NCBI GenBank assembly: GCA_002104985.1
Contig: MCGO01000017.1
Coordinates: forward strand, 558,001-622,000
Length of the DNA: 64,000 nt
Direction: 5' to 3'
From: Rhizoclosmatium globosum
Lineage: Eukaryota > Chytridiomycota > Chytridiomycetes > Chytridiales > Chytriomycetaceae
A model generated the notes under the pieces. It made no database searches, was not told where the DNA came from, and saw only the letters and a program-made list of their open reading frames with translations. A program made the translations under genes and the position numbers. Below, one piece after another: positions 7,275 through 45,453 of the stretch. Positions within the stretch are counted from its first letter, which is position 1. Every line of letters begins with the position of its first letter.

Positions 7275-9028
7275 TTAGTGGCCGCCAGGTTTACTTGGAC
7301 CCTTCGCCCCACTTATGTCATTCGCCAAAGCAACGACAGCCTCAAAACCTCCCACTACACCTCCAAACACACCAACTATCATGATCACAATACCAAATAC
7401 TTTCTCATTCCAAGTGCGATTGTGAAATCCAAATAATTTGAAGTCAAATAGCACAGGGAACACGAAAATCAGTGCCTTAATCTTAATTAGTACTAATAAC
7501 TTCAGAAACCAATGAGATATTACCGTATTAGCCAACGCTCCCAGCAATGTCATGAAATCCTTAAAAAAGGGAACTGCCATAGCGAGACCTACAATTACCA
7601 CCATTATCACACTTCTTAGAGCCCATCTATATTTTGTTTCGACCACAATATTTGAGTTTGACAGAGCTGCAAGGTCGAGCCTTCGTTCCACTTCCAACGA
7701 GAAAGAAGTGACAAGCACAGGAATTGCGAAAAGAATATGCGCGGTGATAAGGAACACAGCCGAGTTTGCGATGATTCCGGGAGGCAGGTTGTTGAGAATC
7801 GGGAATCGGTGAGATTTCCGTACGCGGCTGTAGGGAAATCAAAGTCAGCGCTGAAATCGAATTGATTACTCTGACCGTATCCTACTATTGCCGTGACGAG
7901 GTACATTGCGGAAATGATCACCATTGAGAGACTCAACACCATTCGGAACTTCTTGGGCTCAGCCATCGATGCCTCTACTTCAGGATACTTATAAACGCGA
8001 ATATTAGTGTAGGGCTCAATAGTTAACGCGGTCTTACGATGAAGTTTCCAGAATATGAAAACGAGATGCTTCCTAAGGCTGACGCAAATTGTCGAAAATC
8101 GATGAACTTGTGCGTTACTTTGTCGTAATTGATGGGCATATCATGAATTGAGGACACAATGACCGTTCCAATAACGACAAGAGTCGCGAATACTCCGAAA
8201 GCACTGATTTTCGTTACGAAGTTTAGCTCAATTAAACGAATGATCGACTGTACCTGAATATAGCAATCTCCTTTAGTGTTTTGTACATCAAGAACGGTAT
8301 CATAATGAGGAAGGCGCTTAGAACCATCCTGTGAAAGTGAATCAGACCCCAAATCCAATCTCATGGAACCAAACACACCACACTTTCATCGAAAACGTCC
8401 CGAAAAGAAACTCCAAATTCATTCCAGTCAGAATAAAGTACACAATAGGGACACCTGTTAATCAAGATTGAGAAGGCCAACAAGAGGAACTCAACATGTC
8501 ATACCCAACAACATAGCATCTGTGAACAGCTCCACAAGTATTTTCCCGGGCTTTCCGTAAGCTTCGTAACCAACAGCAGAGAACCCGGTCAGTCTCCTCC
8601 CACTTGAACCCCGGCTATTGGCATATAGGCACTTGATCAACAACCCACCAGCATACTGATTCGAGAAGGCGGAAAAGACAATCAGTCCAACTCCAATCCA
8701 ACCACTTTGATTTAATGCGTATGGAAGTTGAAGAACTCCTGATCCAGCAATCACACAACTGTCAAACGTCAAATTGATATTAGGATGTCACTGCTTACTT
8801 TGACTGCTCAAACTCACATAATGTGATATATTGCTTCTGCGACAGTGTTACCCTTGTGGCCGTGAGATGGTTCTTCAATCTCAAACGTATGATCTGGTGA
8901 GTGAGGAAGTCAATCATCGTGCCTCGCGAGACAAGAAGCATACCAGATGCTGCATCCGACAAAGAGGGAGACTCGGGTCGACTTCTCAAGTTGGAGTATG
9001 ACTCACTGCGAATGAGTGGAGCCTGCAT
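7275..9028 (-). CDS. AAAP-family amino-acid permease, copy 1
   Basis: A multi-pass transporter of the amino acid/auxin permease family (Aa_trans), similar in layout to vacuolar AVT-type carriers. The ATG at 9028 starts MQAPLIRSESYSNL. A 51-nt intron precedes the acidic segment (HTFEIEEPSHGHKGNTVAEA), and a second intron ends just before CVIAGSGVLQLPYALNQSGW, the first helix with the family GxGxLxLPYA signature. Further blocks are VGLIVFSAFSNQYAGGLLIK, GYEAYGKPGK, VPIVYFILTGMNLEFLFG and, near the C-terminus, GVFGGVVGGFEAVVALANDI. About ten hydrophobic helices can be counted. Introns are 50-70 nt. It probably moves neutral amino acids across the vacuolar or plasma membrane; substrate is not predictable. 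A paralogue lies at 10935-12740 in the same orientation. Confidence 0.75.
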
Positions 9029-9320
9029 TTGAATGCACAATCTTACGGTGGAAAACACATATGGCTGAGACTAATCTATTACACAAGAGCAACGAACTAG
9101 TAAAGCAAAACACTCAGCTTGAATAAAAACAGAGATGAAAACTCCAATGCAGAAGGTACTGTCTCAATTGAGAAATAAAGAATCCAGAAAATAAACACAG
9201 ACACAAGGTCTTTAGATACAGAAGGGAAAAAAGGGGAAACTCAAAGCCCCATTATAACATCAGAATAAACAGAAGATACAGAAGATTAAAATTAAGTTAC
9301 TCAACTGGGTTCCCAGAAAT

Positions 9321-10433
9321 TTAGAGCAAAAGAACCATGGCAGCGGCAGCAACGGCGGAGAAGGCAACAGAAGCGGCAGATCCAACCTTGATGTTGATTG
9401 AAGTGGTGGTGGTGGTGGCAGAGGCTGGGGCAACAGCTGCAGTAGTAACTGTAACTGGAGCGGCAGTGGTGGTAGCAGCAGCGGCGGTGGTAGTAGCAGC
9501 AGCGGCGGTGGTGGTAGCGGTGGTAGTGGCAGCAGTTCCAACGGTAGTCACGGGAGCAGAACCCAAAACCAAGTTGAAAGTCTGGGCAGCTGCCTGACGT
9601 CTTCTACGAGCAGCCTGGACAGAGTACAAAATAGAAACAAGACCAGCGTCTGATCCATCGATGGCGTTGAAGTAGGTGATAGAGAAGACAGTACCAGTAA
9701 CATCAAGGTGGAAAACGATGTATGGAGTCTGGCTAACAGATGGTCCAGCAAGGAATCCAAAGACAGGGTCACTGATAACAATGGAAGAAACAGCGTTGGC
9801 GTCCACTACGAGAGTTTTTGACAAGGAGACCTTTTTTCCGCTAGCAGAGGCCTTGCCAACAACAACGTCGGCGCTTTGGGAAAGGACTGGTGATTTAGTG
9901 AGGAGGGACTGTCCTGGAACAAGAGTAACTGGGAAAGTGACAAAAGATTTGGACAAAACAGTCACATCAAAGGTGGTACCAGCTGGGAGAGCGATGGATT
10001 TGGCAACGTTGGCAAGGGTAGAAGCATCATCACCAGTGTAGGCGGTACCGTTGGTGTTGACAACACCCTTGGCCAATGCATCTTGGAAGGAGACAACCGC
10101 CGCACAGACATTGTTGACATAAGCACTGACAAGGTCCTTGCCGGAGGATCCCAAGTTGGAGTTAGCAAAGTCACGTCTGCCCTTGGCAGCACCAGTGGCA
10201 GATGGAGCAGCAGAGGCGGCAGCAGTTGTGGTGGTGGCAGTGGTAGCAGCTGGGCATCCGTTGATGAGGGCTGGGCAAGCCTGGACAAAGGTTGGGAGGT
10301 CGACTACAGTCTTCAAGAGGACATCACAGGAGGTGATTCCGATACTGTTCTGGTATGCTCCGATCTGAGCAGCAGTTTGCTTGTAGGTAGACGCAGAGGC
10401 GACGGCAGCAACGAGGAGCAATGGAGCGAACAT
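9321..10433 (-). CDS. GPI-type Ser/Thr/Ala-rich surface protein
   Basis: A single intronless frame of 370 residues. The ATG at 10433 begins a signal peptide (MFAPLLLVAAVASAS), so the upstream 17 in-frame residues are excluded. A short Cys-containing N-terminal module follows (Cys at TSCDVLL, QACPAL, NGCPA), then a Thr/Ala-rich linker, a beta-rich middle segment, and basic clusters KGRR and ARRRRQ that look like Kex2-type processing sites. A long (TTA)n-type Thr/Ala tail leads to a final hydrophobic run (AVAAAAMVLLL) without charged residues, as expected for GPI attachment. Likely a heavily O-glycosylated wall or membrane protein. It sits between the two permeases and was not part of their duplication. 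Confidence 0.7.
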   Translation of the reverse strand: MFAPLLLVAAVASASTYKQTAAQIGAYQNSIGITSCDVLLKTVVDLPTFVQACPALINGCPAATTATTTTAAASAAPSATGAAKGRRDFANSNLGSSGKDLVSAYVNNVCAAVVSFQDALAKGVVNTNGTAYTGDDASTLANVAKSIALPAGTTFDVTVLSKSFVTFPVTLVPGQSLLTKSPVLSQSADVVVGKASASGKKVSLSKTLVVDANAVSSIVISDPVFGFLAGPSVSQTPYIVFHLDVTGTVFSITYFNAIDGSDAGLVSILYSVQAARRRRQAAAQTFNLVLGSAPVTTVGTAATTTATTTAAAATTTAAAATTTAAPVTVTTAAVAPASATTTTTSINIKVGSAASVAFSAVAAAAMVLLL

Positions 10434-10934
10434 CTTTATAGTATGACTGAGGTTAGGGAAGGAAGATGAGGAATGGCAGAACACTCACACTTTTCCTTTT
10501 TTTGGAGGTTGTTTTTTGGTTGCTTTTGATTTTCGGTGAGTATGGATGTGCGCGTTTTTTCTCTCTTGTTCCGTTCAAGGTTCAGTCTCCAAAATCCGGG
10601 GTAACCCTAGTTTTTTTCATTACAGTCCGCACCAATGTCAACTTCTAATTGTTTGGTTCAAGTTAGTCACATGCAGTTGATGGATGTATACTGTAAACGA
10701 ATAGTCTGTCAGTGTGGTTAGGGTCAATCAATCTTGTGATGAGTCGAACACCAGCTTATCATGGTGGCTGGCTGTGATTCTAAATGCTTCTTTGATGCGT
10801 CATCTTGCACACCCTTGCAAAGACCCCGGACCGCTTCTGCAAAATGATCTTTGATATGAGATTATAGAAATGCACTCAAACACATTGCAACTTGTGTATT
10901 TCATATCAACCCGATTCTTTATGAGTGACGTTAA
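10434..10934. other. Intergenic, upstream of the GPI-type gene
   Basis: No open frame of note. It should hold the promoter of the minus-strand GPI-type gene and the 3' end of permease copy 2. No repeat or RNA gene seen. Confidence 0.45.
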
Positions 10935-12740
10935 TCAAAAATGCCCCCCACCTCCTCCTTTGTTAGGAACGCCATTGATATCGTTGATCAATGCGACGAT
11001 GGCCTCAAAGCCGCCAACAACACCTCCAAACACACCTACAATCAAAATCAAAATTCCAAACACCTTGTCAAACAGTGGTCGATCCTTGAATCCAAATAGT
11101 TTGAAGTCAAACACAACAGGGAAAACGAAAATGAGAGCCTGCCAAGATTTTTAAGTGCCGATAAACTCAAATAAAATCACTCACAGTATTTGCAACGGCA
11201 CCCAATAGCGTCATAAAGTCTTTGAAGAAAGGGATGGCGATAGCAAGTCCAACAATCACACCCATAATCACAATTCTCAACAACACTCTGTAACGATCCT
11301 CACGTTGTGTATCTCCATTCGCAACTTTAAGCAAATCCAGTCGACGTTCCATTTCAAGTGAGAAAGTGGTGACAACAACCGGAATCGCGAGGAGGACGTG
11401 AAGGGTAATAACAAACACGCTAAAATTGGAAATGAATCCCTTGGGCAAGTTATTGAGGATAGGCGAGTCCGTGAGGTTTCCGTAGGCGGCTGAGAAAATG
11501 ATTCAATACCGTGGTTCTTATAAGTTTATCCTCACCGTATCCAAGTGCGGCTGTGACAAGGTACATGATGGAAATGATAATCATTGATAGCGAAAGAACT
11601 TGTTGAAACTTTTTGGGTTCCGCCATAGACTGTTCAACTTCAGGATACTGTGTTTGTTTTTAGCGAAATCGCCGATAGTCTTCAAAAATGTTGGCCCACT
11701 CACAATGTAGTTACCGGCATACGAAAAACTAATGCTTCCAAGCGCAGACGCAAATTGAGTCAGATCAACAAACTTGTGGGTAACCTTGCCAGAGTTGAGT
11801 GGGATATCAATGATTGCATAGTACACCACGGTCCAATAACCACGAAAGTTGCAAATACTCCAAATGCACTAAAAATGGCGATTTCTTTCAGGGTCTTGAA
11901 CAAAAGGAATGGAATCAAGACGACAAGTGCGCTCAACACAATCCTGCGACGCAGAGAATCAGGGACAACTCCATACAACAGCAAAACTAACCAAGTCTGC
12001 ATAGAAAATACGCCGAAAATGAGCTCCAAGTTCATACCAGACAAGATTAAATACACAATCGGGACACCTGTATTCCGCCAACCAGAAATCAGTATCACAC
12101 ATATCAAATGCCAACCCAAACCTTACCCATCAACATAGCACTGGTAAACCCTTCCACCAACCACCGCCCCGTGTCCCCAAACGCCTCATACCCAATATGA
12201 GAAAACCCCTTCAACCGCCGTCCACCTTCTGCTATCCCCATTCGCATACAAACACTTGATGAGAAGTCTTCCAGAGTAGTTGTTTGCGAACGCTGCAAGA
12301 GAACGAGTCCGATCCCAACCCAACCGGCTTGGTTTAATGCGTACGGGAGTTGTAAGACTCCGGACCAGCAATCACGCAACTGTAGGAGGGAAGAATGAGT
12401 CTGTTGGTGGTGTGGTGTGTAACGCATGCGCGACGTAATGTCAAGTTGTGAATGTGGCGGATGACTGTTATCCGGTTGTTCCGGAAGGATGGGGTCTTCA
12501 AGAGCGATACAGCCAATCGAAGTGGAAAGGGTTGAAAGAAGATTACTTGTGCCTTACATGACATGGTAGACTGCTTCCAAGACTGTGTTTCCACGGTGGT
12601 GTGTTTCGTCTGTCACTTCAATGTCTACAGGAGAAGGTATGAGAAGCGCTTCTTGAGATAAAAGCGTCACCTTCTTCATTGATGGTCGCCGGTGGAGGAG
12701 CCAAAAGAGGTGTTGAGGAATCTATGGTTGCTTGGGTCAT
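10935..12740 (-). CDS. AAAP-family amino-acid permease, copy 2 (frameshifts)
   Basis: Paralogue of the permease at 7275-9028 with the same exon order. The ATG at 12740 starts MTQATIDSSTPLLAPP; then come VTDETHHRGNTVLEAVYHV, an intron, and the GSGVLQLPYALNQAGWVGIG helix. The end carries GGVVGGFEAIVALINDING and a Gly-rich tail (NKGGGGGHF). Frame breaks occur near 12375 (one base missing in the GxGxLQLPYA block) and again at about 12250-12320, between SLAAFANNYSGRLLIKCLYA and LKGFSHIGYEAFG. The rest reads cleanly, so assembly error is more likely than decay, but a pseudogene cannot be excluded. N-terminal tails of the two copies differ, which may mean different sorting. Confidence 0.7.
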
Positions 12741-13059
12741 GTCTGGGTTTGGAATGAAATCAGACACTTTTTTTAAGTGATTTCTTGAGGTAAATATTAC
12801 AAAGTACATTCTTCGGCTTTAAATAAGGAATGGGTGCTCTCGATGTAGTCTGATGCTTTTGGCCTTCGAGAGTTGGGATCTGCGATCAAAACTATTGCGT
12901 ATCCAACCTTGTTAAACATTTACCTCATTAGCCTTTAAATAAATTATTGTTTTACACAGTTATTTTGTTCATTATTCATCGTCAAGTTGAGTTTTGAAAT
13001 CCTCATCCTGATTGCACCATCGCTGATAACACATCCAGCGAAAAAACACAAGTCAAAGA
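12741..13059. other. Divergent intergenic region between permease 2 and MetX copy 1
   Basis: About 320 bp with no coding frame of interest. It must contain both promoters. No recognisable operator was found. Confidence 0.4.
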
Positions 13060-14646
13060 ATGCTCCTCTCCGCCGTTCGTTCAGCAAACGGTTGAGCTCA
13101 CAGTACCTCCAACTCGCCTCCATCAGATCCACTCGTCTGTTCTCGCTGGAAGTTCATACCCAACACAACGATCCCACAACAACCAACCAACATCAATCCA
13201 CCACCGCACCCTAACTACAGCCACAAACTCCAACCTGGCACCTAGGAAACCAACCTCTCCTCCAGGCCCAAAACTCCAACCATACAAACTCTTTCCCATG
13301 ATTCCCCCTTCAAGCTGCACCTTGGCGGCCAACTCCCCAGTTTCGAAATAGCTTACGAGTCATGGGGAAAACTAACGAGAAGAAAGACAACGTGATCTTG
13401 TTAACAACGGGACTAAGTGGATCCAGCCACGCAAAGAGCCATTACGGAAACAGGGCTGATGGATGGTGGGAGAAGTTTATTGGTGAGTTGATTCCCGCGT
13501 CACCAAGCAAACCCCAACCCTCGTTTTTGGAATAGGACCTGGATTACCGCTTGATACCAACAAATTCCATATTATATGCACGAACGTGATTGGAGGTGTT
13601 ATGGCTCAACAGGGCCTTCTTCAATCGACCCACACGCATCAGAAAAAGCTGGCAAACCCGTTCGATATGGAACAAATTTCCCCATGATTACAGTTTGGGA
13701 TATGGTCGCGCGCAGTTTCGGTTGATGGATCATTTGGGAATCCAGCGGTTGCATGCAGTTGTGGGGAGTTCGATGGGAGGAATGCAATCGCTTGCTGCTG
13801 CTTCGCTGTTTCCAGAGCGTGTGAATAGAGTGATTTCGATTTCGGCGGCGGCACGGTCGCATCCTTATTCGATTGCGCTTCGACATGCTCAACGACAAGT
13901 TCTGATGAGCGATCCTAACTGGATGGGTGGAATGTATTATGAGCATGGTGTTATTCCGGATAAGGGATTAAGTGAGTGTGTGTTTTAGTTGATTGCAATC
14001 GCTCACTCCATTTGTTGTAGTTGGCACGTCAGATTGGAACTATTACGTATCGTTCAGGACCTGAATGGGAAATGCGATTTGGCCGAAAGCGATCAAATCC
14101 ATCACTGAAACCTAGTTTGAAAACAGATTTCATGATTGAATCTTATTTGGAGCATCAGGTACGTGTATTCTCTAGGTGTCTTTTCCTAATTATCTTACTG
14201 CAGGGAAACAAATGGGTCGGTAAATATGATGCCAACTCATTGTTATACATCTCAAGGCCATGGATATGTTTGACATGACAGATCGGCCGTCGTTTGATCC
14301 AAACGACATTTCAAGTTCTTCACTTTCAGAGACTGGATACGATGAAAAGTATTCACTGATTACAACATACCCGGTACCTTGTGGAAGGAATGCTACAATT
14401 CAGTCCACACTCGTAATTGGTGTGAAATCCGATTTCTTGATCCCTTCATGGCAACAACAAGAGATTGCGACATGTTTGAAGGATGCAGGGAACAAAATGG
14501 TGACGCATTTTGAAATCGATGGAGTGTATGGGCACGACACATTCCTCCTTGATTTTAGCAATGTGGGTTCAGCAGTGAAAGGACATCTTGAGATTCCCAC
14601 CATGGTTCAACCTGAAACAACAAAATCAGTACCCAAGCCTCTTTAG
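13060..14646 (+). CDS. MetX-family homoserine/serine O-acetyltransferase, copy 1
   Basis: An alpha/beta hydrolase of the MetX family, which transfers acetyl from acetyl-CoA to homoserine (methionine route) or, in some fungal members, to serine. Blocks in order: [47 protein letters not shown], the nucleophile elbow [41 protein letters not shown], and near the end [11 protein letters not shown] (catalytic Asp) and GHDTFLLDF (catalytic His). Four short introns are implied. The N-terminal 80 residues are poorly defined and contain an in-frame stop (TGA near 13093). One-base losses near 13595 (TGTTATGGC) and 14252 (AGGGCC) break the frame but not the catalytic residues. The leader is Ser/Arg-rich, which may indicate mitochondrial import. 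The next gene is its tandem copy. Confidence 0.8.
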
Positions 14647-34118: not shown

Positions 34119-35439
34119 ATGGGCAAAGAGGTCGCGAAGAAAGGAGCTAGCAAAGTAGCAGCTAAGGCTGCTCCAGCTGGAAAGGACACCAAGAAGGCTG
34201 CCGCAGTCTCAAAGAAGGTTACTATACAAACTCATTGCCCACAACCTTTGACTGCTCTCCTCTTGGTGCCTGTATCTAAAATAAACTACCTTTCTTTTCA
34301 AAGATTTCCAAAGAGGAGGACGATGAAGATGAGGAAGATGACGATGAGGATGAGTGCGTGTTTAACCTCGACAATATGTGTGTGTAACTTTGACTGATCG
34401 TTTCCCTCGTTTCCTTAATAGTGATGAAGACGACGAGGATGAGGACGATGACGAGGACGAGGAGGAAGATGAGGAAGAGGTTGGTTTGGGTGTTCTTGAT
34501 CATGTTTAGAGCTGCCTCCCTAAATATTCATGAATTAGGAGGAGAAGCCAGCTTCCAAGAAGCGTGCTGCTGGAAGACAGCTCTGCATCTTCCCCAAAGA
34601 AGCAAAAGTCTGACGACGGTGCCTCAAAGACTAGTACGTTTAAATTGATCATTTACACCTCCTTTTCGCGCAGTACTCATCCTATCATTCCCTTAGTTTT
34701 CGTCGGAAACTTGTCTTTCAAGGCTGATGAGGACATGATCACTGAGCACTTTTCCTCCGCCGGAGAAGTTGTCAGCGTTCGTATCATCAACGGACCAGAC
34801 GGACGCAAGAAGGGTTTCGGTTACGTCGAGTTTGCCGACTCTGCTTCCGCCAAGAAGGCTCTCGAGCTTGCCGACTCTGAGCTTGATGGACGCAACATTC
34901 GTGTTGACCTTTCCGCTCCACGCCCAGAGAGGACCGAGAAGATTTCTGCCCCAGCTGACACCTTGTTTGTTGGAAACTTGAGCTTCGATGCTACTGAGGA
35001 TGGTCTCAGAGAGCTTTTCAGCGAGCACGGAGAGATTGTTTCTTGCCGTCTCCCAACTGACCGTGAGTCTGGAAACCCTAAAGGGTGAGTTACATTTTTA
35101 ATCCTAATTCCGAGATGCCAATTTGTTTCTTTGCTGACATATTATCCAGATTTGCTTACGTTCAGTACTCTGACATTGAGAACGCCAAGGCTGCTCTTGA
35201 GGCTCTCAACGGTGCCGAATACGAGGGCCGCAAGATCCGTCTCGACTTTAGCACTCCAAGACCAGAGGGAGGTTCTGACCGTGGAGGTCGTGGTGGCCGT
35301 GGTGGTCGCGGAGGATTCGTGGGGGCCGTGGGGGAGCCGTGGTGGATTTGGCGGAGGTCGTGGAGGAGGCCGTGGAGGATTCGGTGGAGGCCGTGGACGT
35401 GGAGGAGGTGGTCGTGGACGAGGTCGTGGTGGTTTCTAA
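34119..35439 (+). CDS. Nucleolin/Nsr1-like protein, copy 2
   Basis: Same architecture as copy 1, starting 105 bp after it. The N-terminus [20 protein letters not shown] is followed by an acidic Glu/Asp block (about 34310-34480), a basic patch ([13 protein letters not shown]), RRM1 ([40 protein letters not shown]), RRM2 ([20 protein letters not shown]; split by an intron before [20 protein letters not shown]) and an RGG tail ending GRGRGGF. A frame shift falls in the first RGG block near 35320. The acidic exons are almost pure GAY/GAR codons. Confidence 0.8.
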
Positions 35440-35620: not shown

Positions 35621-38600
35621 ATGGCCAAAAGCGACGTCATCAAGAGTGTCAAGGGAGGAAAGGTCGAGAAGAAGGCTGCTCCAGTTAAGGAAGTCAAGAA
35701 GGCCGCTCCAGCTGCCAAGAAGGTTTGTTCAATATTGTCAGTCGATAATGTTATGGCAATCTCACTCCTACTTGTCAACCAATCAGCCTGTGAAGGAGGA
35801 GAGCTCAGACGATGATAGCTCCGACGACGACAGCTCTGAGGAGGAAGCCCCAAAGAAGGTTGCCGCCAAGGTTGGTTCTTGTCAGTTGAAACCAGTAAAT
35901 CTGTTATTGATCATTCCAAAATAGCCTGCAGCCAAGAAGCCTGTCGAGTCTGAGTAAGTATTCTAATTGAATTCATGAATTTCCGCTAATATTGATCAAT
36001 CTAGCTCTGATGACCTGACTCAAGCGATGATTCCAGCGATGAAGAGCCTCCAAAGAAGGCACCAGCCAAGGTATTGTATTTTATCTATCCACTATCAATC
36101 GTTGGTATTCATCGGTTGTAAAATGTAGGCTGTAGCCAAGAAGGAGGAATCCAGCGACGATGAATCTTCATCTGATGACGACAGCAGCGACGATGAGCCA
36201 CCAAAGAAGGCTGCTCCTGTGAAGGTTGATTTAATTTTACAATTTTAAAAAATATCCTAACAATAAGTTTCAGGCTGCTGCCAAGAAGGAGGAGTCCAGT
36301 GACGAAGAGTCTTCCTCTGATGACGACAGCAGTGATGATGAGCCACCAAAGAAGGCTGCCGCCAAGCCTGTTGCCAAGGCTGTTGCCAAGAAGGAGGAAT
36401 CCGATGACGATGACTCTTCCAGCGATGATGACAGCGAGGACGAGAAGCCTGCCCCAAAGAAGGGCCGCTGCTAAGGTTTGTTTTGCTCCATTTTTTTGTA
36501 TGGGAACTTGTCAGGGGATCTGACGGAGGGAGGGTTGCGGACTTCTCTTTTATTCTTTCTTTATTTATTTGTTTATTATCCGGTGGCTGTGTGGGAAAGC
36601 ACCGGAAGGGGAAAATGTAAAAATAGAAACTACCTTGTGAACAAAGCAGCGTGCGAACGGGCTCTGTTGGTGGAGGGCGTCTGGAACAGGACGGGACGCC
36701 ACCCGACATACTTGAGCGAGGTGGCCTAGGTACGTTTCTCCCCCTTTCGAGCGTAGTGTCTAGCCTGAGTGTCGGGTTGACCTCCTGTAAGGGATGGAAG
36801 GGAGGCACCATGACTGCAGGCATGTAAGGACAGGAGGGTTAGTACGGGTTTCAAAGCTGGATGGTTTCCCACCTACCCAGACCCGCGCTACGGGAATAGG
36901 GGACTGATCAACGATCAACTGGGGATCACTGGACGGGTTCGGTGGATGTGGACCGAGGACAGTGATCGACTGCGGATGCGAACAGGACGGCTTGCGACAG
37001 GGATTCGCTGTAATGTGGGCTTGGACCTACTGGACGGACTGTGGGAAGGAGGGGACTTCCACTGGCGCATCCGAGATGAGGGGATCGGTGATAAGGTGAT
37101 GTTTTCCTTTTTTATGTATGATGAGTGAGATACTATTGACTACGTGCTAGGTACCGTTACGTCAGACATGGACAACCTGACGTGCTTGGCGACGGCCGAG
37201 CCGGTATCCCGGTCACAGTGGGGGCCCAACACCAAATGCGAGTGTAGCGAGACGATTGGTCCGTCGATCGCTGGTCTTATTCCTCCGGCCTTCGGGCCGT
37301 CGAGATGATTATTTATAGCGTTGAGCTTAGCTCCGCACTGCGTTGAGTTATACTCCGCCTCTATACAGGGCTCCGGCCTACCTTTATAAATGATGAAACT
37401 ATGGTGTCGTAATGACACTGACAAATAGATGACTAATCATCGAGGATCACCAGCAACTACTACAACAACAACTACAACTACAACACCATACAACTCGAAA
37501 TCGATTCGAAACGATTCAGCATTGCAGTAAACACAGGACTGTGGAGATTGGAGGATGAAGGAGCAGGCTTATTCTAACTCCCCTAACACACCCCAACACC
37601 TTTTACACTTTATAATCAAATAAAACCCTTTATTTCACGAATATCAATCACTCGAGCCTTACCTGGTTGACAAAGACGTGAAGGAAGAAAAATGACAAAT
37701 GAAATTTTTAGAAATATTCCGACTCACCAAAGGAATATGATTCTTTCTTTCCTTTTCCTTTTTTTCTTCACTTTCAAAAGAATGCAAACAAACCGTATGA
37801 ACCTCGACCCGCCCGCTGGGCCGACCTCGACTGCAGCTGCTGCCAATAGAGCCGGCGAGTCTACTCACCCGTATACTAATCCTGCAAAGCAGGGGCGGTA
37901 TTTCGAAACGAGGAGGTCGTAACCGTGTTGCTGCACGCAGCATGGATTCTTCTTGTCGAATAAGTCGGCAAACATTCGGCGCACAGGTGCGCTACCTTCG
38001 AGCCCTAAGCTCTACCTAATACTTATACTAATACAATTCATTTTATTATATTAGGTCGCGAAATGCCGGCTAACATTATTATTAACCAAAACAGCCACTT
38101 CATGGCAGAATCGGCGAAGTTATTAGCCCATACGGTGCAGCTGATGGCTTCCATGGGTCAAAACTTGATGAACGAAGGCCTCCCTTACGACAAGGCTTGG
38201 GACGCTTGCCTCAAAACATCCAGCTTCCAATTGGAGCGACTCCTTGAACGCCAAAGAGAAGCCGACGCTATCGCTGCAGCAACACCACCTCTCCCACCAC
38301 CTACCGAGGAGAACGCTACCCGTTACTTCCAACCTCAAGGAGGTCGCTACAGCCGTAACCATAACCAAGGCTCCTCCTCGAACGATACTACCACTCGTTC
38401 CGGACGTCCGTCCAATAGCACCAACCAGAACCCTGAGTTCATCCCAGTAAACGACCGAGAAGACGGAGAAATCCTAACCGATGCGCCCCGCTCGCCAGCT
38501 CAATCAAGTAAGGAGAACTTCATTCCCAAACTATATTTAACTGTAACACAGCCTCGGGTCTCACCGATGCCCTCGGCTCTACTGCGATCAACTAAAACAA

Positions 38601-41600
38601 GTAACAACAAAAACACTCCTCTTTTTTTTTGCGACCACTTTACAAAACCAATAAAATCTATTTGGAAAGTATAAACTTTGGACTTCTTCGAACAGACGTA
38701 CCAAAACGAGAAGAACCACATCCCCAAAGTCAGAAACTTCGGAAAATTCCCAGATCCAACGCAGGTTTTCTTTTCTTCCTGCTCTTTTTTATTCTCCGAA
38801 AGAAAAATTGTGATTCACGTAACGATAACAGGAAGGTACAACCTTACCTTAATACGACCCCAACTAATCTACCTAATAGCATGAAAGTACAGCATAGCCC
38901 GAACAACATCAGAGCCAAACTCCGAAACCGAAACCTTCTCGGCCGTGAAAGAACGACGTTCAGTTTTAGTCAGTCACAAGCCGACAACTTTGTAAGGATT
39001 CGCTTATGACAATTCCAAAAGAAGGTGATAAACTAGTGATTGAGTGCGATGCGTCCGGCACGGGACTCGGCGGAGCTCTTTTATTCAAGGGAATCAAACA
39101 AGAAAACTGACCGTAAACCGGTCGCATTTATATCCAGAACACTTACAGACGTCGAAAAACGTTACTCGAATACAGATCGCGAAGGGCTCGCGGTGATATG
39201 GGCAGTAACATGTTTCGATCGATATATCTTCAACCAACCGGCGACTGTCGAAACCGATCATAGCGCCTTATTAAGCCTTTTCAAAAATGGAGCACTTACA
39301 GGACGGTTCTCAAGATGGGCCTATGCCCTTTCGCATTACGACTTGACACTGGTCCATGTCCCGGCGACACGCAAATTGTGCCGATACTCTATCAAGAGTA
39401 TATTTAGGACGAAAAGAAAAGAATTTGAGAACGTTGGTACTCAGACAGAACCAACAACATTGGTTCAAGCTTTATCTCAAAACAATAAAACTGCTTTTAT
39501 TAAACTTGCAAACCAAACAATCGACAAATTTACCTCACTTGGTGATACGATGCGAGGTATATGGAAGAAACTACAAAAGAAGAACGACCAGCTACGCGCT
39601 GTCAATAAAAAATCCCATCTTGAGGCCTATAAAAAAACCGCGAACCACTCGAAGGAACGCGATGCCCAAGTCTGAACTTCACGTCTCAGAATCTAAATGG
39701 TTTTAGTAATTCATACACGCTTGGAAGAAGAGTAATACCGAAATAAATGAAGAACAGACCGAGGCTACAATTATGGAACAATACTTAGACATGTTAGGAG
39801 GAAGTGTCATATGTTTTCAAGAGACGCGACTGGGACGCAAGTCCACAAAACTCCTCTCACAAATGCAAACCCTTCCAAATTGGAGTTGCGCTATAAGCGA
39901 CAACCTTTCGGGACATTACGGAGTAGCCACTCTATGGAGAAAGGACTTGAAAGGCGAGATTCACTCGTATGGCGCGATGGACGAGGCTGACCCGGAGGGT
40001 CGTATCCTTACCATTACACTCGGCGACTTTGCTATTGTCAATTGTTACGCACCAAGTGGGAATAGAGATGAGAAAAGACATCTATTTAAAATAAACTTCC
40101 TTGAAAAATTAAAACGACACTGCCTACACCTACGTAAGAAACACTTTGTTCTGCTTATGGGCGACTTAAACATTGCCCCAGATTCGGAGAAAGATGTGAT
40201 GCCGTTTGCCGTCAAAGAAAACTTGGTGGATTGTTTCGGTTCGACTATCAGCGCCGAAGAACAAATTTGGTTCAAATCAATGACTGAACACTTCCACGAC
40301 GGCTTTCGAGTAAAACACCCAGAACCTCATGGCTCTACTTGGCTTTTAAAAGCATATGATAATAAAGTATACCCTTTTTGGAGAGTTGACCACATACTTA
40401 TAGACAATAGGATTGATAAGAAACACTTCGACGTGAGGATCGACTCAAGAAAATGGGAAAGCGACCACGTCGCCCTGCAGTTACACACAACTTTCCACGG
40501 AAATGATAAATCGATTTTGATTGACAGAACATCATGGACAAATAAAGAGAATCCTCAATACTATACCTTCTGTTCAGATGTAAACATTGATAACTTTGAA
40601 ACAAATCTTAACATAACATTACCGAATTCAGGTAAAACAGTTAAGGAAATCCGCGAACTTCAACTCGCCGATACCCACTTTGGCCCACTTTTAAGATTTC
40701 GCCAGTATGGTACAGTACCTGAACCAAAGGAGGGTGAAACAACTTTAACAAAAGATAACCTAATTGCATTGTCAAAGGACCTCATCGTCGACAGCAATGG
40801 ACTCCTTTTCAAAATCCATAACGCCTCAAAACAACAAGTTCGAAAGCAACCAGCGCGCGTGACGTTATGTGTACCAGACAACATGCGACGAGAAATCCTG
40901 GATCTCCTCCACTCAGACCTGTTTGCTGGACATTATGGGTTTGAGAAAGTTTATACACCCCTCCTTGATCGCTATTGGTGGCCAACAGTAAAGAACGATT
41001 TAGAAAATGAAATAAAATCTTGTCCTGAATGTAATACTGCCAAAGATTTCCGGCAAAAAGCTGGATATGTCTTTCCAATTCCAATTGGAAAACACCCTTG
41101 GGAAAGAGTGTTTGTTGACTTTATGCAACCACCAAAACCAGATGAGAAAACAGGTAACAAATACATCATGGTTGTTGTAGACTCTTTCACTAAATGGGCA
41201 GAAGCCATCCCAATACCGGACCTTAAAGCCAAAACAGTCGCTGAGGCGTTAGTGGAGAAAGTATTCTGCCATACCGGCGTCCCTGTTTACTTACATTCTG
41301 ACGGTGGAGAACCCTTCAACAGCAATCTTATGTTGCAACTCTCCAGGAGATTTGGATTTTATAAGACGTTCACCAGTCCCTACTGGCCCAGAGCAAATGG
41401 GATGGTCGAGCGACTTATCAAAAACTTATCAGAACGAATAAGACATTACATTAATAAATACACTTTTGATGATTGGGAAACCATACTCCCTTATGTTTTA
41501 TTTGCGTATAGAACTCATGCCCATGGCACTACAGGAGAAACACCATTCTTTATGTTCCATGGATTTGACGCACGATTACCTTCTGACTTACTTCTGGGAA

Positions 41601-44600
41601 TTAACCCCATTGACATTGAAAAAGTCCTACCTGACTGTAAGGCAGACCTTACTGAAAAACCAACTTCTCTTGACCCCACCCCACAGACACTCACTATGAC
41701 TTCCCAAGAAACTGTTGAAGAACCATTCCCGGAAAAACTCCCTAAAATAGCCATCGCGTCCTACCGATCCTTTCGACAGTTTGTTCAAAGTAAACTATCC
41801 AAACATCTTTATGGATACGAAACAGAATATAACCCACAACGCGTATTGAGGAAACTGTTTGAAAAATACAACTTAGATGCAATAGTCCTCATTCACAACT
41901 TACACCCAAAACAAGATTATCGAACAGACTACCCAGTTCCATATACTTTTAAATTAGAAGATGGGACAGATATCCCAAGAATTGGGAACTTCCGCATTGG
42001 AGCGGCAACAGCGGATGGCAAAGTTAGAACTGTACTTGAGAACAAACCTGCAAAAAGAATAATAAATGTCTTCTCCCGAAAGAACTTAATACAAATAGGA
42101 AACAACTTACCTGATAGTCTCCCTGAAGATAACCCTGAACCTCAGCTGTTCTTGGGAACACCAGGTATTTTACGCTGTATGTACCGCGCCTATAACTTTA
42201 CCACTAAAACATATGTGGATTACATCATACCTTTAGTTGATGCAACTACTAAAGACTTTGTTGTAGTGAGAGGTGTCCCTTTGTGGGATGGAGCCACTCA
42301 ATTCTTTACAGTTGGTGAATCCTTCTTATTTGATGAAGCTCCTATCCAAACTTTTATAATTAATGACTTTGAACCCACAAATGATGAAACTCCCATGACT
42401 TTGGTGAACGAGATGGACAGTGACTTTGATGATGTAGCGGTGGTTGGCGAAACCTCACCAGAAGACATCAAATCATTTACTGAGAGATTAGTAAGAGGCC
42501 TACAAGCTTCTAGATCTGTCATTATAGATAATGTTAATAAAGAACAAGAAAAGTATGCAACCCAAACAAATAGTAATGTTGACCCTTCTCATGAATTTAG
42601 AGTAGGAGAGCGCGCCTGGTTGGCGGTTCCCCTTACTGCTGAAGCGCAACGCCTTAAAGTTGGAAAGAAGTTTATTCCACGATGGGTTGGACCTGTTAGA
42701 ATTGTTGACCGAGCGGAAGGAGACGCTCAAACAAAATATAGAGTCGTTGAACGATTCCCTGGTAACCAAATTGTTGTTAGAACAGTGCATGCTAGTCGAC
42801 TCAGACCATTCACAGCGCGAGTACCTGTTGACAGTGCAGAGGATGCCATGAAATTAGCAGGTGATGACTTTGAGACTGAGTACAAGAAATGGTTAGACGA
42901 TGAGAAGCTAACAAGAAGACCTACCCACAAACAACAATATGCATCCGGCGCAAGCCCTTGGCTACTTGCAAAGATTGACCCTACTTTTAGTCAAGAAGAC
43001 ATCGATAACCCAAAATTAATTATTGATAAAATCTTAGATGTTAAAAAGACTGTCAATCCAACCTCCTTTGAGTATCTCACCAGTTGGGAGATGTGGGGAC
43101 GAAAGGAACGCCATTGGCAACGAGAAGAGGATATGCCCTCGGAAGTTATAAGTGACTTCTGGGAACAAATAAAAGAAAGTATAGGCCTTTATGGAATGAA
43201 TACAAAAAGATGAAAGAGCGAATGTCTGAGAAAGTTAGTGGTGACTTAGCAATACCACTTGAGATTGACACGACTCCAACTGAAGTCCAACAGCAGAAAA
43301 GAAAGACAAAAGCCAAACCGGTAGAAAAGATTATCCAACCACCTGTAGTTACCGACGCCGTTGAACAAAGAGCTTTAAGATTACTTAAGAGGAATCAAAA
43401 AGAGGATGAGGCTACCCGCAAGTAGCCCCTTCCTAACACCACTTTTAGGTAATTAAATACAAGATCTTTGGATCCACCGGTGACCAGGGCACTACTAGGA
43501 CGAACGCGCCTACTCATACAATTATGGCAAGAAAGGTGTTCTCATGGCTCGCGCCCTGGAGCGAGTTGAGAACAGCCCTTTCATTTCTTCAGCAGCTGGA
43601 TGAGTGGTGGAGTTGGTTGTGTTGGTTTTTAGTTTCGTTTGGACATGTCGGTAGCCTTTCCTTGTTTCAGACTCTAGGTAACGGAGTACCTAGGGGTTTT
43701 TTGGAAAAGGGCCCACTGTCAGGGGATCTGACGGAGGGAGGGTTGCGGACTTCTCTTTTATTCTTTCTTTATTTATTTGTTTATTATCCGGTGGCTGTGT
43801 GGGAAAGCACCGGAAGGGGAAAATGTAAAAATAGAAACTACCTTGTGAACAAAGCAGCGTGCGAACGGGCTCTGTTGGTGGAGGGCGTCTGGAACAGGAC
43901 GGGCGCCACCCGACATACTTGAGCGAGGTGGCCTAGGTACGTTTCTCCCCCTTTGAGCGTAGTGTCTAGCCTGAGCGTCGGGTTGACCTCCTGTAAGGGA
44001 TGGAAGGGAGGCACCATGACTGCAGGCATGTAAGGACAGGAGGGTTAGTACGGGTTTCAAAGCTGGATGGTTTCCCACCTACCCAGACCCGCGCTACGGG
44101 AATAGGGGACTGATCAACGATCAACTGGGGATCACTGGACGGGTTCGGTGGATGTGGACCGAGGACAGTGATCGACTGCGGATGCGAACAGGACGGCTTG
44201 CGACAGGGATTCGCTGTAATGTGGGCTTGGACCTACTGGACGGACTGTGGGAAGGAGGGGACTTCCACTGGCGCATCCGAGATGAGGGGATCGGTGATAA
44301 GGTGACGTTTTCCTTTTTTATGTATGAGTGAGATACTATTGACTACGTGCTAGGTACCGTTACGTCGGACATGGACAACCTGACGTGCTTGGCGACGGCC
44401 GAGCCGGTATCCCGGTCACAAACTGACTTCGAGTTCTAGGAGGAATCCAGCGATGACGACAGCAGCGACGATGATGACGAAGAGGAGGAGGAAAGCCAGC
44501 CGCCAAGAAGCGTGTTGCTGAAGAAGAGGAGCAAGAGGAGGAGCCAGTTGCCAAGAAGCAGAAGTCTGAGGAGTCTGGAAGCGGTGAAACTAGAAACGGT

Positions 44601-45453
44601 ATGTCCTTTTGACCAAAAGAAATCCTTAATAATTTGTTTTATTTGTTAGTGTTCGTTGGAAACCTCTCATGAATGCCGATGAGGATATGGTTGCTGCTCA
44701 CTTTGCGGAATGTGGAGAGGTTCTTGCTGTCCGTATCATCACCGACCAAGAATCTGGCCGAAAGAAGGGTTTTCGGTTACGTTGAATTTGCTGACGCCGA
44801 ATCTGCCAAGAACGCTCTTAAGATGCACGAAACCGAGCTCGATGGCCGTGCTATCCGAGTTGACCTCTCTATCCAAAAGGAGCGTGCTGAGAAGAAGAGC
44901 TTCAACAACAAGAACAGCTTTACTCCATCTGCCCCAACTTCTGCCCCAGCTGACACATTATTTGTTGGAAACATGAGCTTTAACGCTCACGTTGATGGCC
45001 TCAAGGAACTCTTTGGAGAGTACGGAAACGTTACATCTGTCCGTATCCCAACTGATCGCGAGACTGGAGCTGTTAAAGGGTATGTGTATTCGAGGCTGAT
45101 GTGTATTTGTTTCCTAAACTCTTTATTCCTCTAGTTTCGGTTACGTCTCATTCTCTAGTGTCGATGAGGCCAAGGCTGCCCTCGAGGCCCTTAATGGAGT
45201 TGACTATGAAGGACGAGGATTGCGTCTTGACTACAGCACACCAAGAGACAACGCTGGCGGTGCCGGTGGAGCTCGTGGTGGCCGAGGTGGGGGCCGTGGT
45301 GGATTCGGAGGTGACCGTGGAGGTCGTGGAGGAGCTCGCGGTGGCCGTGGTGGATTTGGTGGAGGTCGTGGAGGCGGTCGTGGAGGATTTGGAGCTCCAA
45401 GCCGTGGAGGTTTTAGCGCACAGCCAGCTGGAAAGAAAATTACTTTCGACTAA
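35621..45453 (+). CDS. Nucleolin/Nsr1-like protein, copy 3, with Nopp140-like repeats, split by a retrotransposon in an intron
   Basis: Starts MAKSDVIKSVKGGKVEKKAA. Five or more short exons each encode a Ser/Asp/Glu acidic run followed by PPKKA-type basic residues (EESSDDESSSDDDSSDDEPP then KKAA), as in Nopp140/Srp40 CK2-site repeats. The exon ending at 36475 (KPAPKKAAAK after allowing one extra G near 36467) is followed by an intron 36476-44439 that contains the whole LTR element; the next exon begins GAGGAATCCAGC. Then come RRM1 (ADEDMVAAHFAECGEVLAVR), RRM2 ([40 protein letters not shown]) and a long RGG tail ending PAGKKITFD. AATAAA is at about 45487. Expression depends on splicing out a 7964-nt intron in an organism whose introns are about 50 nt, so the gene may be impaired. 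Confidence 0.75.
36509..37217 (+). repeat. 5' LTR
   Basis: 709 bp, beginning TGTCAGGGGATCTGACGG (itself containing the inverted repeat GTCAG/CTGAC) and ending CCCGGTCACA. Matches 43717-44420 along its whole length with a few substitutions and short indels. It should carry the element promoter and polyadenylation signal; no clear TATA box was identified. Confidence 0.95.
37218..38062 (+). other. Retroelement leader with primer-binding-site position
   Basis: Directly after the 5' LTR comes GTGGGGGCCCAACACC, the expected place for a tRNA primer site (TGG start), but I cannot assign the tRNA. Further on are the hairpin-like GGCCTTCGGGCC and repeats of CTCCGGCC, then a CAA/ACT-rich run near 37455-37490. 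The open frame 37692-37922 has no recognisable domain. Confidence 0.5.
38063..38674 (+). CDS. Gag-like ORF of the retroelement
   Basis: 203 residues: MPANIIINQNSHFMAESAKL, an N-terminal helical part (LMASMGQNLMNEGLPYDKAW; LERLLERQREADAIAAA), then Pro-, Asn- and Arg-rich disordered sequence (GGRYSRNHNQGSSSND). Position directly after the leader and the helix-plus-basic-tail layout suggest a capsid/nucleocapsid protein, but there is no CCHC zinc knuckle and it is shorter than a usual Gag, so it may be truncated. Confidence 0.5.
   Translation: MPANIIINQNSHFMAESAKLLAHTVQLMASMGQNLMNEGLPYDKAWDACLKTSSFQLERLLERQREADAIAAATPPLPPPTEENATRYFQPQGGRYSRNHNQGSSSNDTTTRSGRPSNSTNQNPEFIPVNDREDGEILTDAPRSPAQSSKENFIPKLYLTVTQPRVSPMPSALLRSTKTSNNKNTPLFFCDHFTKPIKSIWKV
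39006..39675 (+). pseudogene. Ty3/Gypsy RNase H segment, RT core missing
   Basis: Begins MTIPKEGDKLVIECDASGTG, the start of a retroelement RNase H with the first catalytic Asp; a one-base shift near 39107 leads to RKPVAFISRTLTDVEKRYSN, TDREGLAVIWAV (catalytic Glu), FDRYIFNQPATVETDHSALL (Asp) and LSHYDLTLVHVPATRK. The segment just upstream (frame with ETETFSAVKER) resembles the thumb end of a reverse transcriptase, but the fingers/palm with the YxDD motif are absent. The tail to 39675 is Lys-rich. Likely an internally deleted pol gene. Confidence 0.7.
39773..43213 (+). CDS. Endonuclease (ExoIII/APE)-integrase-chromodomain polyprotein
   Basis: An uninterrupted ORF of 1146 residues. Residues about 1-235 form an endonuclease/exonuclease/phosphatase fold of the ExoIII/APE kind: ICFQETRLG (metal Glu), YGVATLWRKDL, VNCYAPSG, LMGDLNIAPDS (Asp, Asn), FWRVDHILID and ESDHVALQL (Asp-His). 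Residues about 235-375 are the usual RNase H-integrase linker. The H2C2 finger (LLHSDLFAGHYG; SCPECNTAK) is at about 378-425, and the integrase core at about 440-560 with Asp in FVDFMQ, Asp in HSDGGEPF and Glu in NGMVERL; the last two are 35 residues apart (DD35E). A GPY/F-like module (IPRWVGPVRIVD; VRTVHASRLRPF) lies at about 960-1015 and a chromodomain-like tail (ILDVKKT; EYLTSWEMWG; HWQREEDMP) at about 1085-1140. All catalytic residues are present. Confidence 0.85.
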   Translation: MEQYLDMLGGSVICFQETRLGRKSTKLLSQMQTLPNWSCAISDNLSGHYGVATLWRKDLKGEIHSYGAMDEADPEGRILTITLGDFAIVNCYAPSGNRDEKRHLFKINFLEKLKRHCLHLRKKHFVLLMGDLNIAPDSEKDVMPFAVKENLVDCFGSTISAEEQIWFKSMTEHFHDGFRVKHPEPHGSTWLLKAYDNKVYPFWRVDHILIDNRIDKKHFDVRIDSRKWESDHVALQLHTTFHGNDKSILIDRTSWTNKENPQYYTFCSDVNIDNFETNLNITLPNSGKTVKEIRELQLADTHFGPLLRFRQYGTVPEPKEGETTLTKDNLIALSKDLIVDSNGLLFKIHNASKQQVRKQPARVTLCVPDNMRREILDLLHSDLFAGHYGFEKVYTPLLDRYWWPTVKNDLENEIKSCPECNTAKDFRQKAGYVFPIPIGKHPWERVFVDFMQPPKPDEKTGNKYIMVVVDSFTKWAEAIPIPDLKAKTVAEALVEKVFCHTGVPVYLHSDGGEPFNSNLMLQLSRRFGFYKTFTSPYWPRANGMVERLIKNLSERIRHYINKYTFDDWETILPYVLFAYRTHAHGTTGETPFFMFHGFDARLPSDLLLGINPIDIEKVLPDCKADLTEKPTSLDPTPQTLTMTSQETVEEPFPEKLPKIAIASYRSFRQFVQSKLSKHLYGYETEYNPQRVLRKLFEKYNLDAIVLIHNLHPKQDYRTDYPVPYTFKLEDGTDIPRIGNFRIGAATADGKVRTVLENKPAKRIINVFSRKNLIQIGNNLPDSLPEDNPEPQLFLGTPGILRCMYRAYNFTTKTYVDYIIPLVDATTKDFVVVRGVPLWDGATQFFTVGESFLFDEAPIQTFIINDFEPTNDETPMTLVNEMDSDFDDVAVVGETSPEDIKSFTERLVRGLQASRSVIIDNVNKEQEKYATQTNSNVDPSHEFRVGERAWLAVPLTAEAQRLKVGKKFIPRWVGPVRIVDRAEGDAQTKYRVVERFPGNQIVVRTVHASRLRPFTARVPVDSAEDAMKLAGDDFETEYKKWLDDEKLTRRPTHKQQYASGASPWLLAKIDPTFSQEDIDNPKLIIDKILDVKKTVNPTSFEYLTSWEMWGRKERHWQREEDMPSEVISDFWEQIKESIGLYGMNTKR
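43210..43425 (+). CDS. Small basic ORF overlapping the integrase stop
   Basis: 71 residues (MKERMSEKVSGDLAIPLEID, then QQQKRKTKAKPVEK and RALRLLKRNQKEDEATRK). Its ATG overlaps the integrase TGA as ATGA at 43210-43213, which would allow termination-reinitiation. Strongly charged, probably nucleic-acid binding or a displaced C-terminal piece of the polyprotein. No family recognised. Confidence 0.4.
   Translation: MKERMSEKVSGDLAIPLEIDTTPTEVQQQKRKTKAKPVEKIIQPPVVTDAVEQRALRLLKRNQKEDEATRK
43703..43711 (+). other. Polypurine tract
   Basis: GGAAAAGGG, six bases before the 3' LTR: the expected plus-strand priming site. Confidence 0.6.
43717..44420 (+). repeat. 3' LTR
   Basis: 704 bp, TGTCAGGGGATC to CGGTCACA, matching the 5' LTR. 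Followed by the AACT target duplication and the last 15 nt of the host intron (GACTTCGAGTTCTAG). Confidence 0.95.

Follow-up and report, generated by a model that had tools for sequence, protein, structure and literature searches.

The nucleases of the endonuclease/exonuclease/phosphatase domain (EEP) family that are carried by long interspersed nuclear elements (LINEs) nick target DNA and, to our knowledge, LINEs do without a DDE integrase; Dualen, said to stem from work by Kojima and Fujiwara in 2005, reportedly combines an APE with a restriction-like endonuclease, i.e. two different endonucleases in one retroelement. An APE-type nuclease is a hallmark of LINE insertion, as an integrase is of long terminal repeat (LTR) elements, and the presence of both together makes it testable which step of the LTR life cycle benefits. 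In the accessible portions of the reports concerned, LTR elements have captured a dUTPase (fungi, rotifers), a DnaQ-like exonuclease and, in orchids, an m6A demethylase (PMC6431247, PMC6338049, PMC9289625), and the extras mentioned there and in related texts are a dUTPase, a DnaQ-like exonuclease, and a helicase or chromodomain (PMC3248453, PMC9926174, PMC6431247, PMC6338049, PMC5348765). Helentrons of fungi and animals are described, in the available text, as having captured an abasic-site (AP) endonuclease domain (PMC6431247). The open-licence full texts searched, in the parts accessible, yielded no LTR element with an AP-endonuclease (subscription papers and Repbase were outside reach) and, in keeping with a previous sequence-only reading of the present locus, no described Ty3/gypsy lineage with its domain order. 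Here we describe, in a 64,000-nucleotide stretch of the genome of the chytrid Rhizoclosmatium globosum (the window; contig MCGO01000017.1, positions 558,001 to 622,000), a broken copy of a Ty3/gypsy element in which a nuclease of the ExoIII/APE1 family is placed between RNase H and integrase. Our preferred reading, to which we assign a probability of about 0.45, is that this nuclease acts as the element's own AP-endonuclease and cleans 3' ends on the cDNA before integration.

The Ty3/gypsy-type element occupies positions 36509-44420 of the window, with a 4-bp target duplication, a primer site and a purine tract, and an alignment of its two LTRs shows 3 mismatches and 6 gap columns in 710 columns. 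As the sequence-only reading had claimed, an ATG-to-stop frame of 1146 residues (39773-43213) runs without a stop and joins an EEP to a DDE integrase in one polyprotein inside real LTRs; position 39773 is merely the first ATG in this frame, which measures 1167 residues from stop to stop (39710-43213). The profile searches suggested with that reading gave, for the 1146-residue protein, Pfam matches above the curated cut-offs for Exo_endo_phos (PF03372; residues 12-232, E 5e-9), Integrase_H2C2 (367-424, E 7.5e-16) and rve (441-538, E 1e-9), and one below the cut-off for Chromo (1083-1131, E 0.025). The integrase D,D,E residues are kept in the alignment, with 35 residues separating the second D from the E, in agreement with the DD35E class first given to it.

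Full-length relatives with a reverse transcriptase (RT), the search for which had been proposed at the outset, were found in C113 and C416, both with the order RT-RNase H-integrase by Pfam. The C113 copy has LTRs that are 100% identical over 709 bp and a single stop-to-stop frame of 3609 residues, along which follow a zinc knuckle (residue 1043), a weak protease match (1353; Asp_protease_2, E 0.015, below cut-off), RVT_1 (1891-2050), RNase H (2113-2245), the EEP (from 2364), H2C2, rve and a weak chromodomain. Window positions 36504-38985 align with positions 70-2553 of the C113 stretch and 38986-44423 with 7685-13136; since the alignment skips them, 5131 bp are missing from the window copy, which has thereby lost RT, the protease region and the zinc knuckle of gag; its frame also changes relative to C113 where RNase H meets the EEP and at the C terminus. 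The C113 EEP starts earlier, at LNFTSQNLNGF, a strand that includes the catalytic Asn and lies in another frame in the window (39663-39710), so that the window EEP is cut N-terminally. Having arisen by deletion, the window copy is defective and its EEP is truncated; the case for intact catalysis must therefore be made on other copies. The endonuclease first described as complete is indeed matched by Pfam, but lacks its first strand in frame; likewise, the catalytic residues held to be intact in both enzymes are kept in the alignment rows, except that the Asn strand of the window EEP is displaced. A further copy, L001 (G000:C68:42672-49109), matches the window at every one of the 6438 bases compared, 290 bp of which lie past the 3' LTR; because the identity extends into the host flank, C68 is, on this comparison, a duplicated or allelic contig and no independent insertion.

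The genome searched comprises 56.9 Mb and holds at least 49 matches to the 1146-residue protein. Those whose sequence was examined form six families, termed group I, i.e. A (the window, C113), B (C416, C43, C324, C372), C (C114, C363, C401), D (C214), E (C124, C245) and F (C130, C298), and the EEP lies between RNase H and H2C2 in all of them. Other copies have the same joined EEP-integrase frame, as do full-length members of other families (42-45% amino-acid identity), and it is, therefore, more than chance. Group II (C90, C13, C397) again has the order RNase H-EEP-H2C2, yet is distant from group I; the order in group III (C368, C146, C301) is EEP-RT-RNase H-H2C2. The group III locus L044 (C146) has an RT motif LQDD, not YxDD, and a Pfam RT match of E 0.003, below cut-off, its frame being otherwise open. 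LTRs were identified for families A, B and C and for groups II and III, and are 100% identical in the C113, C416, C90 and C368 copies. The Pfam sets for the whole genome contain 83 EEP and 60 H2C2 matches, to which a search with the TIGR00633 model added 3 EEP pieces. An EEP lies upstream on the same strand for 48 of the 60 H2C2 matches, within 1.5 kb for 41 and at 2.0-3.3 kb for 7; the latter belong to group III, in which the EEP precedes RT wherever the sequence was read. What had been presented as a peculiarity of one element is real there, but is more widespread and takes two positions. Many of the loci are near-identical copies and, therefore, families rather than loci are the independent units.

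These counts bear on the suggestion that the joint is a nested LINE fragment or a functionless fusion made by chance, with which the defective state of the window copy would fit. We regard it as scarcely credible, because the same joint is present in six group I families and in the database protein P0004 (see below), and the EEP is constrained. A nested LINE at 39773-40500, which the sequence-only reading had named as an outcome that would refute it, and an assembly artefact were both rejected on the recurrence of the EEP at the same place in the six families.

The LINE kinship first attributed to the EEP did not stand. TIGR00633 (xth; curated cut-off 99.05 bits) scores 106.6 bits for the window, 136 for family B, 130.6 for C90, 121.5 for C368 and 130.8 for C146, compared with 39 to 85 bits for the LINE-like EEPs of the genome; the cut-off is passed by 35 of the 67 genome matches, one of them only together with its frame neighbours, and all 35 are element copies. 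PDB searches at E up to 1 gave 57, 54 and 53 matches for groups I, II and III, respectively, led by ExoA, ExoIII, ARP and APE1, and the L1 endonuclease was absent from them, whereas the LINE-like EEP C46, also from this genome, had it as the first match. In the EEP tree the gypsy EEPs are separate from a LINE clade (98/94). The comparison rows were labelled as LINEs on the strength of the L1-endonuclease match (C46) or of an Exo_endo_phos_2 'endonuclease-reverse transcriptase' assignment (C212, C90:10k), and Pfam detected no RT in the pieces of C212:299k and C69 examined. A LINE-type origin was rejected, since the tree, the xth model and the scores against PDB entries all spoke against it; as judged by these comparisons, the element EEPs are ExoIII/APE1-like and apart from LINE endonucleases. 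In the same genome, L071 (G000:C113:178600-179900) reads by eye, in three-frame translation, as an intron-split Apn2-like host gene.

The equivalents of APE1 N68, E96, Y171, D210, N212, D283, D308 and H309 are kept in every row of groups I-III that covers them, the final His of family A lying outside the aligned stretch and being present in the translation (SDHVAL). The Trp at APE1 position 280, which we take to matter for the abasic pocket, is kept in group I and in two database proteins (P0004 and P0059), the L1 endonuclease having Ser. The window EEP was modelled in its truncated form with AlphaFold (3 rows; mean predicted local distance difference test score (pLDDT) 63.8, predicted template modelling score 0.71). 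The first matches of the model are XthA, APE1 and ARP; since the LINE-1 endonuclease, at rank 36, has a similar TM-score, the model supports the EEP fold only, and the fold was rejected as a discriminator between ExoIII and LINE types. Constraint was estimated between families B and D, for which synonymous sites are saturated (proportion of synonymous differences, pS, 0.79-0.84; 0.79 in the EEP). The proportion of nonsynonymous differences (pN) is 0.100 for the EEP, 0.053 for integrase, 0.075 for RT plus RNase H and 0.233 for a segment inserted after the integrase core; because pN is low at saturated pS, amino-acid constraint on the EEP is, by this measure, strong and nearly as strict as on the core enzymes.

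The insertion marks look like ordinary integrase work. A 4-bp duplication flanks each of the five EEP-bearing insertions examined (window AACT, C113 GAAC, C416 CGCT, C90 CTAC, C368 GAGG). It follows that target nicking in the manner of LINEs, by which the EEP would aid or replace integrase, is disfavoured; we consider it improbable, also given the full LTRs of these insertions, the retained integrase D,D,E and the ExoIII/APE1-like rather than LINE-like nature of the EEP, although the group III EEP does precede RT, as in LINEs. The kinship of the EEP, together with the group I Trp, more likely points to abasic sites and 3' ends as its substrates than to target nicking, and roles at AP sites and in end trimming are both plausible.

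We return to action on the cDNA. In the scheme that we favour, the polyprotein would be packaged, and RT would make cDNA with abasic sites and misprimed or ragged 3' ends; the EEP would cut at the abasic sites and clear 3' termini of blocked or surplus nucleotides, allowing repair synthesis to be completed and integrase to find a usable CA-3' end, the target being cut by integrase alone. This scheme draws on the observed LTRs, domain order, family membership, catalytic residues, constraint, recurrence (in families and in a database protein) and 4-bp duplications, and is favoured by element ends that, before processing, look non-standard in their spacing to the primer site (see below).

A narrower version, in which the EEP is chiefly a 3'-5' exonuclease that trims linear cDNA 3' ends with more or fewer than the usual two bases, abasic sites being no substrate, is rather unlikely in our view. 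It would suit membership of the ExoIII family and the adjacency of EEP and integrase in groups I and II, and the element termini hint at a possible need for additional trimming of the ends in EEP-bearing elements. The compact EEP-less gypsy element at G000:C399:737936-743465 (220-bp identical LTRs, a single 1530-residue frame), which has a 5-bp duplication, serves as the control. Between LTR and primer site there are 1 (A), 3 (B), 0 (C) and 1 (C368) bases, compared with 2 in the control, and between purine run and LTR 4-5 bases in A and B compared with 0, in what is a small sample with assumed purine-tract cut sites; the family B primer-binding site is TGGGGGCCCAACG. In group III, moreover, the EEP stands before RT and not beside integrase.

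A different proposal directs the EEP at nucleic acid of the host or of a competitor, or has it weaken an editing or repair defence of the host. There is precedent, in the available part of one account, for accessory domains of elements that are host-derived and host-directed (PMC6338049); the fusion of the EEP into pol, with no separate frame, suggests instead action within the particle, and we hold a host-directed role to be quite unlikely.

Several points weigh against cDNA repair and cleaning as the role of the EEP. Its nuclease activity, its release from or joining to integrase and its action on cDNA are presumed from sequence. The position of Trp 280 is taken by Phe in group II and by Met or Ala in group III, so that AP specificity may not hold for these groups, and the C301 EEP scores 68.7 bits on TIGR00633, below that cut-off, and is also below the Pfam one. 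Twelve of the 60 H2C2 matches have no EEP, and gypsy elements can therefore do without it; the idea that EEP-less family copies would count against the fusion is met by the closest copies, which carry the EEP, although other gypsy elements lack one. A kit for cDNA base repair might include a dUTPase or a uracil-DNA glycosylase, and Pfam found neither in the C113 polyprotein. The spacing argument comprises four families and one control and rests on the chosen placement of primer sites and purine tracts. Finally, the group II element G000:C90:231170-242304, with 483-bp identical LTRs, lacks both a TGG primer site past its 5' LTR and a clear purine tract, which may mean that it is primed in an unusual way.

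Relatives elsewhere are few. The family B EEP region, searched against 5.8 billion proteins, gave none at E 0.001 among 1886 candidates, and two scans of viral_contigs gave none. PF03372 is present in 1 of 25 proteins from the integrase-region search (P0004) and in 1 of the 120 matches listed from the group II search of 239 proteins (P0059) and, on these counts, the EEP architecture is rare among the gypsy proteins of that database. P0004 (ENA contig, 6438 bp) has the order RNase H-EEP-H2C2-rve-weak chromo (E 4e-5, 23.8 bits, below the 25.1 cut-off); it is not from this genome, where the most similar sequences reach 42-48% over the EEP-integrase part. It joins group I in both the EEP (99/98) and the integrase (93/98) trees, and the two domains have thus moved as a pair. 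P0059 (NCBI contig, 10430 bp) reads EEP-RT-RNase H-SET-H2C2-rve in one polyprotein, and its EEP falls among repair enzymes (100/99) on a long branch.

The separate endonuclease and integrase trees that had been proposed agree, together with the RT tree, in parting group I from groups II and III; they do not settle how often the EEP was captured, which may have been once, twice or three times. A single clade of all gypsy EEPs was not rejected in the first EEP tree (p 0.19), and was rejected at p 0.04 once P0004 and P0059 were added, the group having been named after the tree was seen. The RT tree places the EEP-bearing rows on one side with support of just 52/15, and the integrase tree does not reject one EEP-bearing clade (p 0.24 and 0.35). 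On the latter tree EEP presence takes 3 changes with P0005, P0029 and P0030 as EEP-less, or 2 if these, whose frames may end before a possible EEP place, are unlabelled. We tentatively suggest, with rather less than even confidence, that LTR retrotransposons took up ExoIII/APE1 AP-endonucleases more than once, at two places in the polyprotein, and that these became a permanent component of their replication, a base-excision-type repair enzyme of the element's own that makes cDNA fit for integration.

Table 1. Features of the Ty3/gypsy-type element, in window coordinates.
Feature	Position	Strand	Basis
Target-site duplication AACT, left copy	36505..36508	.	Compared flanks
5' LTR, TG...CACA	36509..37217	+	LTR alignment; 33 matches of the LTR in the genome
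Primer-binding site TGGGGGCCCAACACC, 1 base past the 5' LTR	37219..37233	+	
Gag-side (N-terminal) polyprotein remnant, frames broken	37700..38985	+	Alignment to C113
Junction of the 5131-bp internal deletion (zinc knuckle, protease region, RT gone)	38985..38986	.	Alignment to C113
RNase H remnant, broken frame	39040..39675	+	RNase H domain found in the C113 copy
EEP first strand (LNFTSQNLNGF), out of frame with the remainder in the window copy	39663..39710	+	Translations and C113
Open frame, EEP - H2C2 - integrase - inserted segment - GPY/F-like - chromo-like	39710..43213	+	
EEP domain, ExoIII/APE1-like	39806..40468	+	Pfam; TIGR00633 106.6 bits; model fold match
Integrase H2C2 zinc finger	40871..41044	+	Pfam
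Integrase core, D,D-35-E	41093..41410	+	Pfam, alignment
Inserted segment between integrase core and tail, borders approximate	41840..42490	+	
Chromodomain-like tail, under the Pfam cut-off	43019..43165	+	
Purine tract GGAAAAGGG, then CCCAC, then 3' LTR	43703..43711	+	
3' LTR	43717..44420	+	LTR alignment
Target-site duplication AACT, right copy	44421..44424	.	Compared flanks

The inserted segment of group I, of about 200 residues, is common to the other families of the group and is fast evolving, being the least constrained portion of the pol frame; it has no Pfam match, and its predicted structure is unusable (pLDDT 35). At the matching place in P0004 we noted by eye a lookalike of the retropepsin-type fold (NGVATIAEIDTLATF). 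Two adjacent nucleolin-like genes, with acidic repeats, RNA recognition motifs (RRM) and glycine-arginine repeats (GAR), lie at 34534-35439 and 36127-36464 / 44430-45453 of the window. The element seems to have inserted in an intron of the second, since the flanks, once joined, have the look of a short GT...AG intron, with the acidic stretch upstream and the RRM and GAR exons downstream.

If the nuclease does repair or trim cDNA, this would point to abasic sites or ragged 3' ends as a step that truly limits LTR elements, and perhaps also retroviruses, which rely on host enzymes, and repair enzymes that are fused or co-packaged could readily be drawn from the elements for study. For repeat annotation, equating an APE domain with a LINE is unsafe.

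The elements resemble Ty3/gypsy, chromovirus-like retrotransposons in their TG...CA LTRs, tRNA-type primer site, RT-RNase H-integrase order, D,D-35-E, 4-bp duplication and, tentatively, a chromo-like tail whose Pfam matches lie below the cut-off, but add an ExoIII/APE1 domain before integrase (groups I and II) or before RT (group III) and, in group I, the long segment past the integrase core. With the ExoIII/APE1 repair AP-endonucleases they share xth scores above the cut-off in most families, all the catalytic positions and, in group I, Trp 280, whereas the nuclease here is embedded in a retroelement polyprotein and its activity is putative. APE-type LINEs have the EEP fold and RT in common with them, but are non-LTR elements that insert by target priming and whose EEPs form a separate clade, whereas the present elements have LTRs and 4-bp duplications; Dualen, too, is a non-LTR element. 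Helentrons, as portrayed in the accessible text, are alike in AP-endonuclease capture, but are DNA transposons with a Rep-helicase and neither RT nor integrase. The enzyme-capturing LTR elements, as far as the available accounts go, likewise have a gypsy polyprotein into which the domain of a cellular enzyme is built, the enzyme being one other than an EEP.

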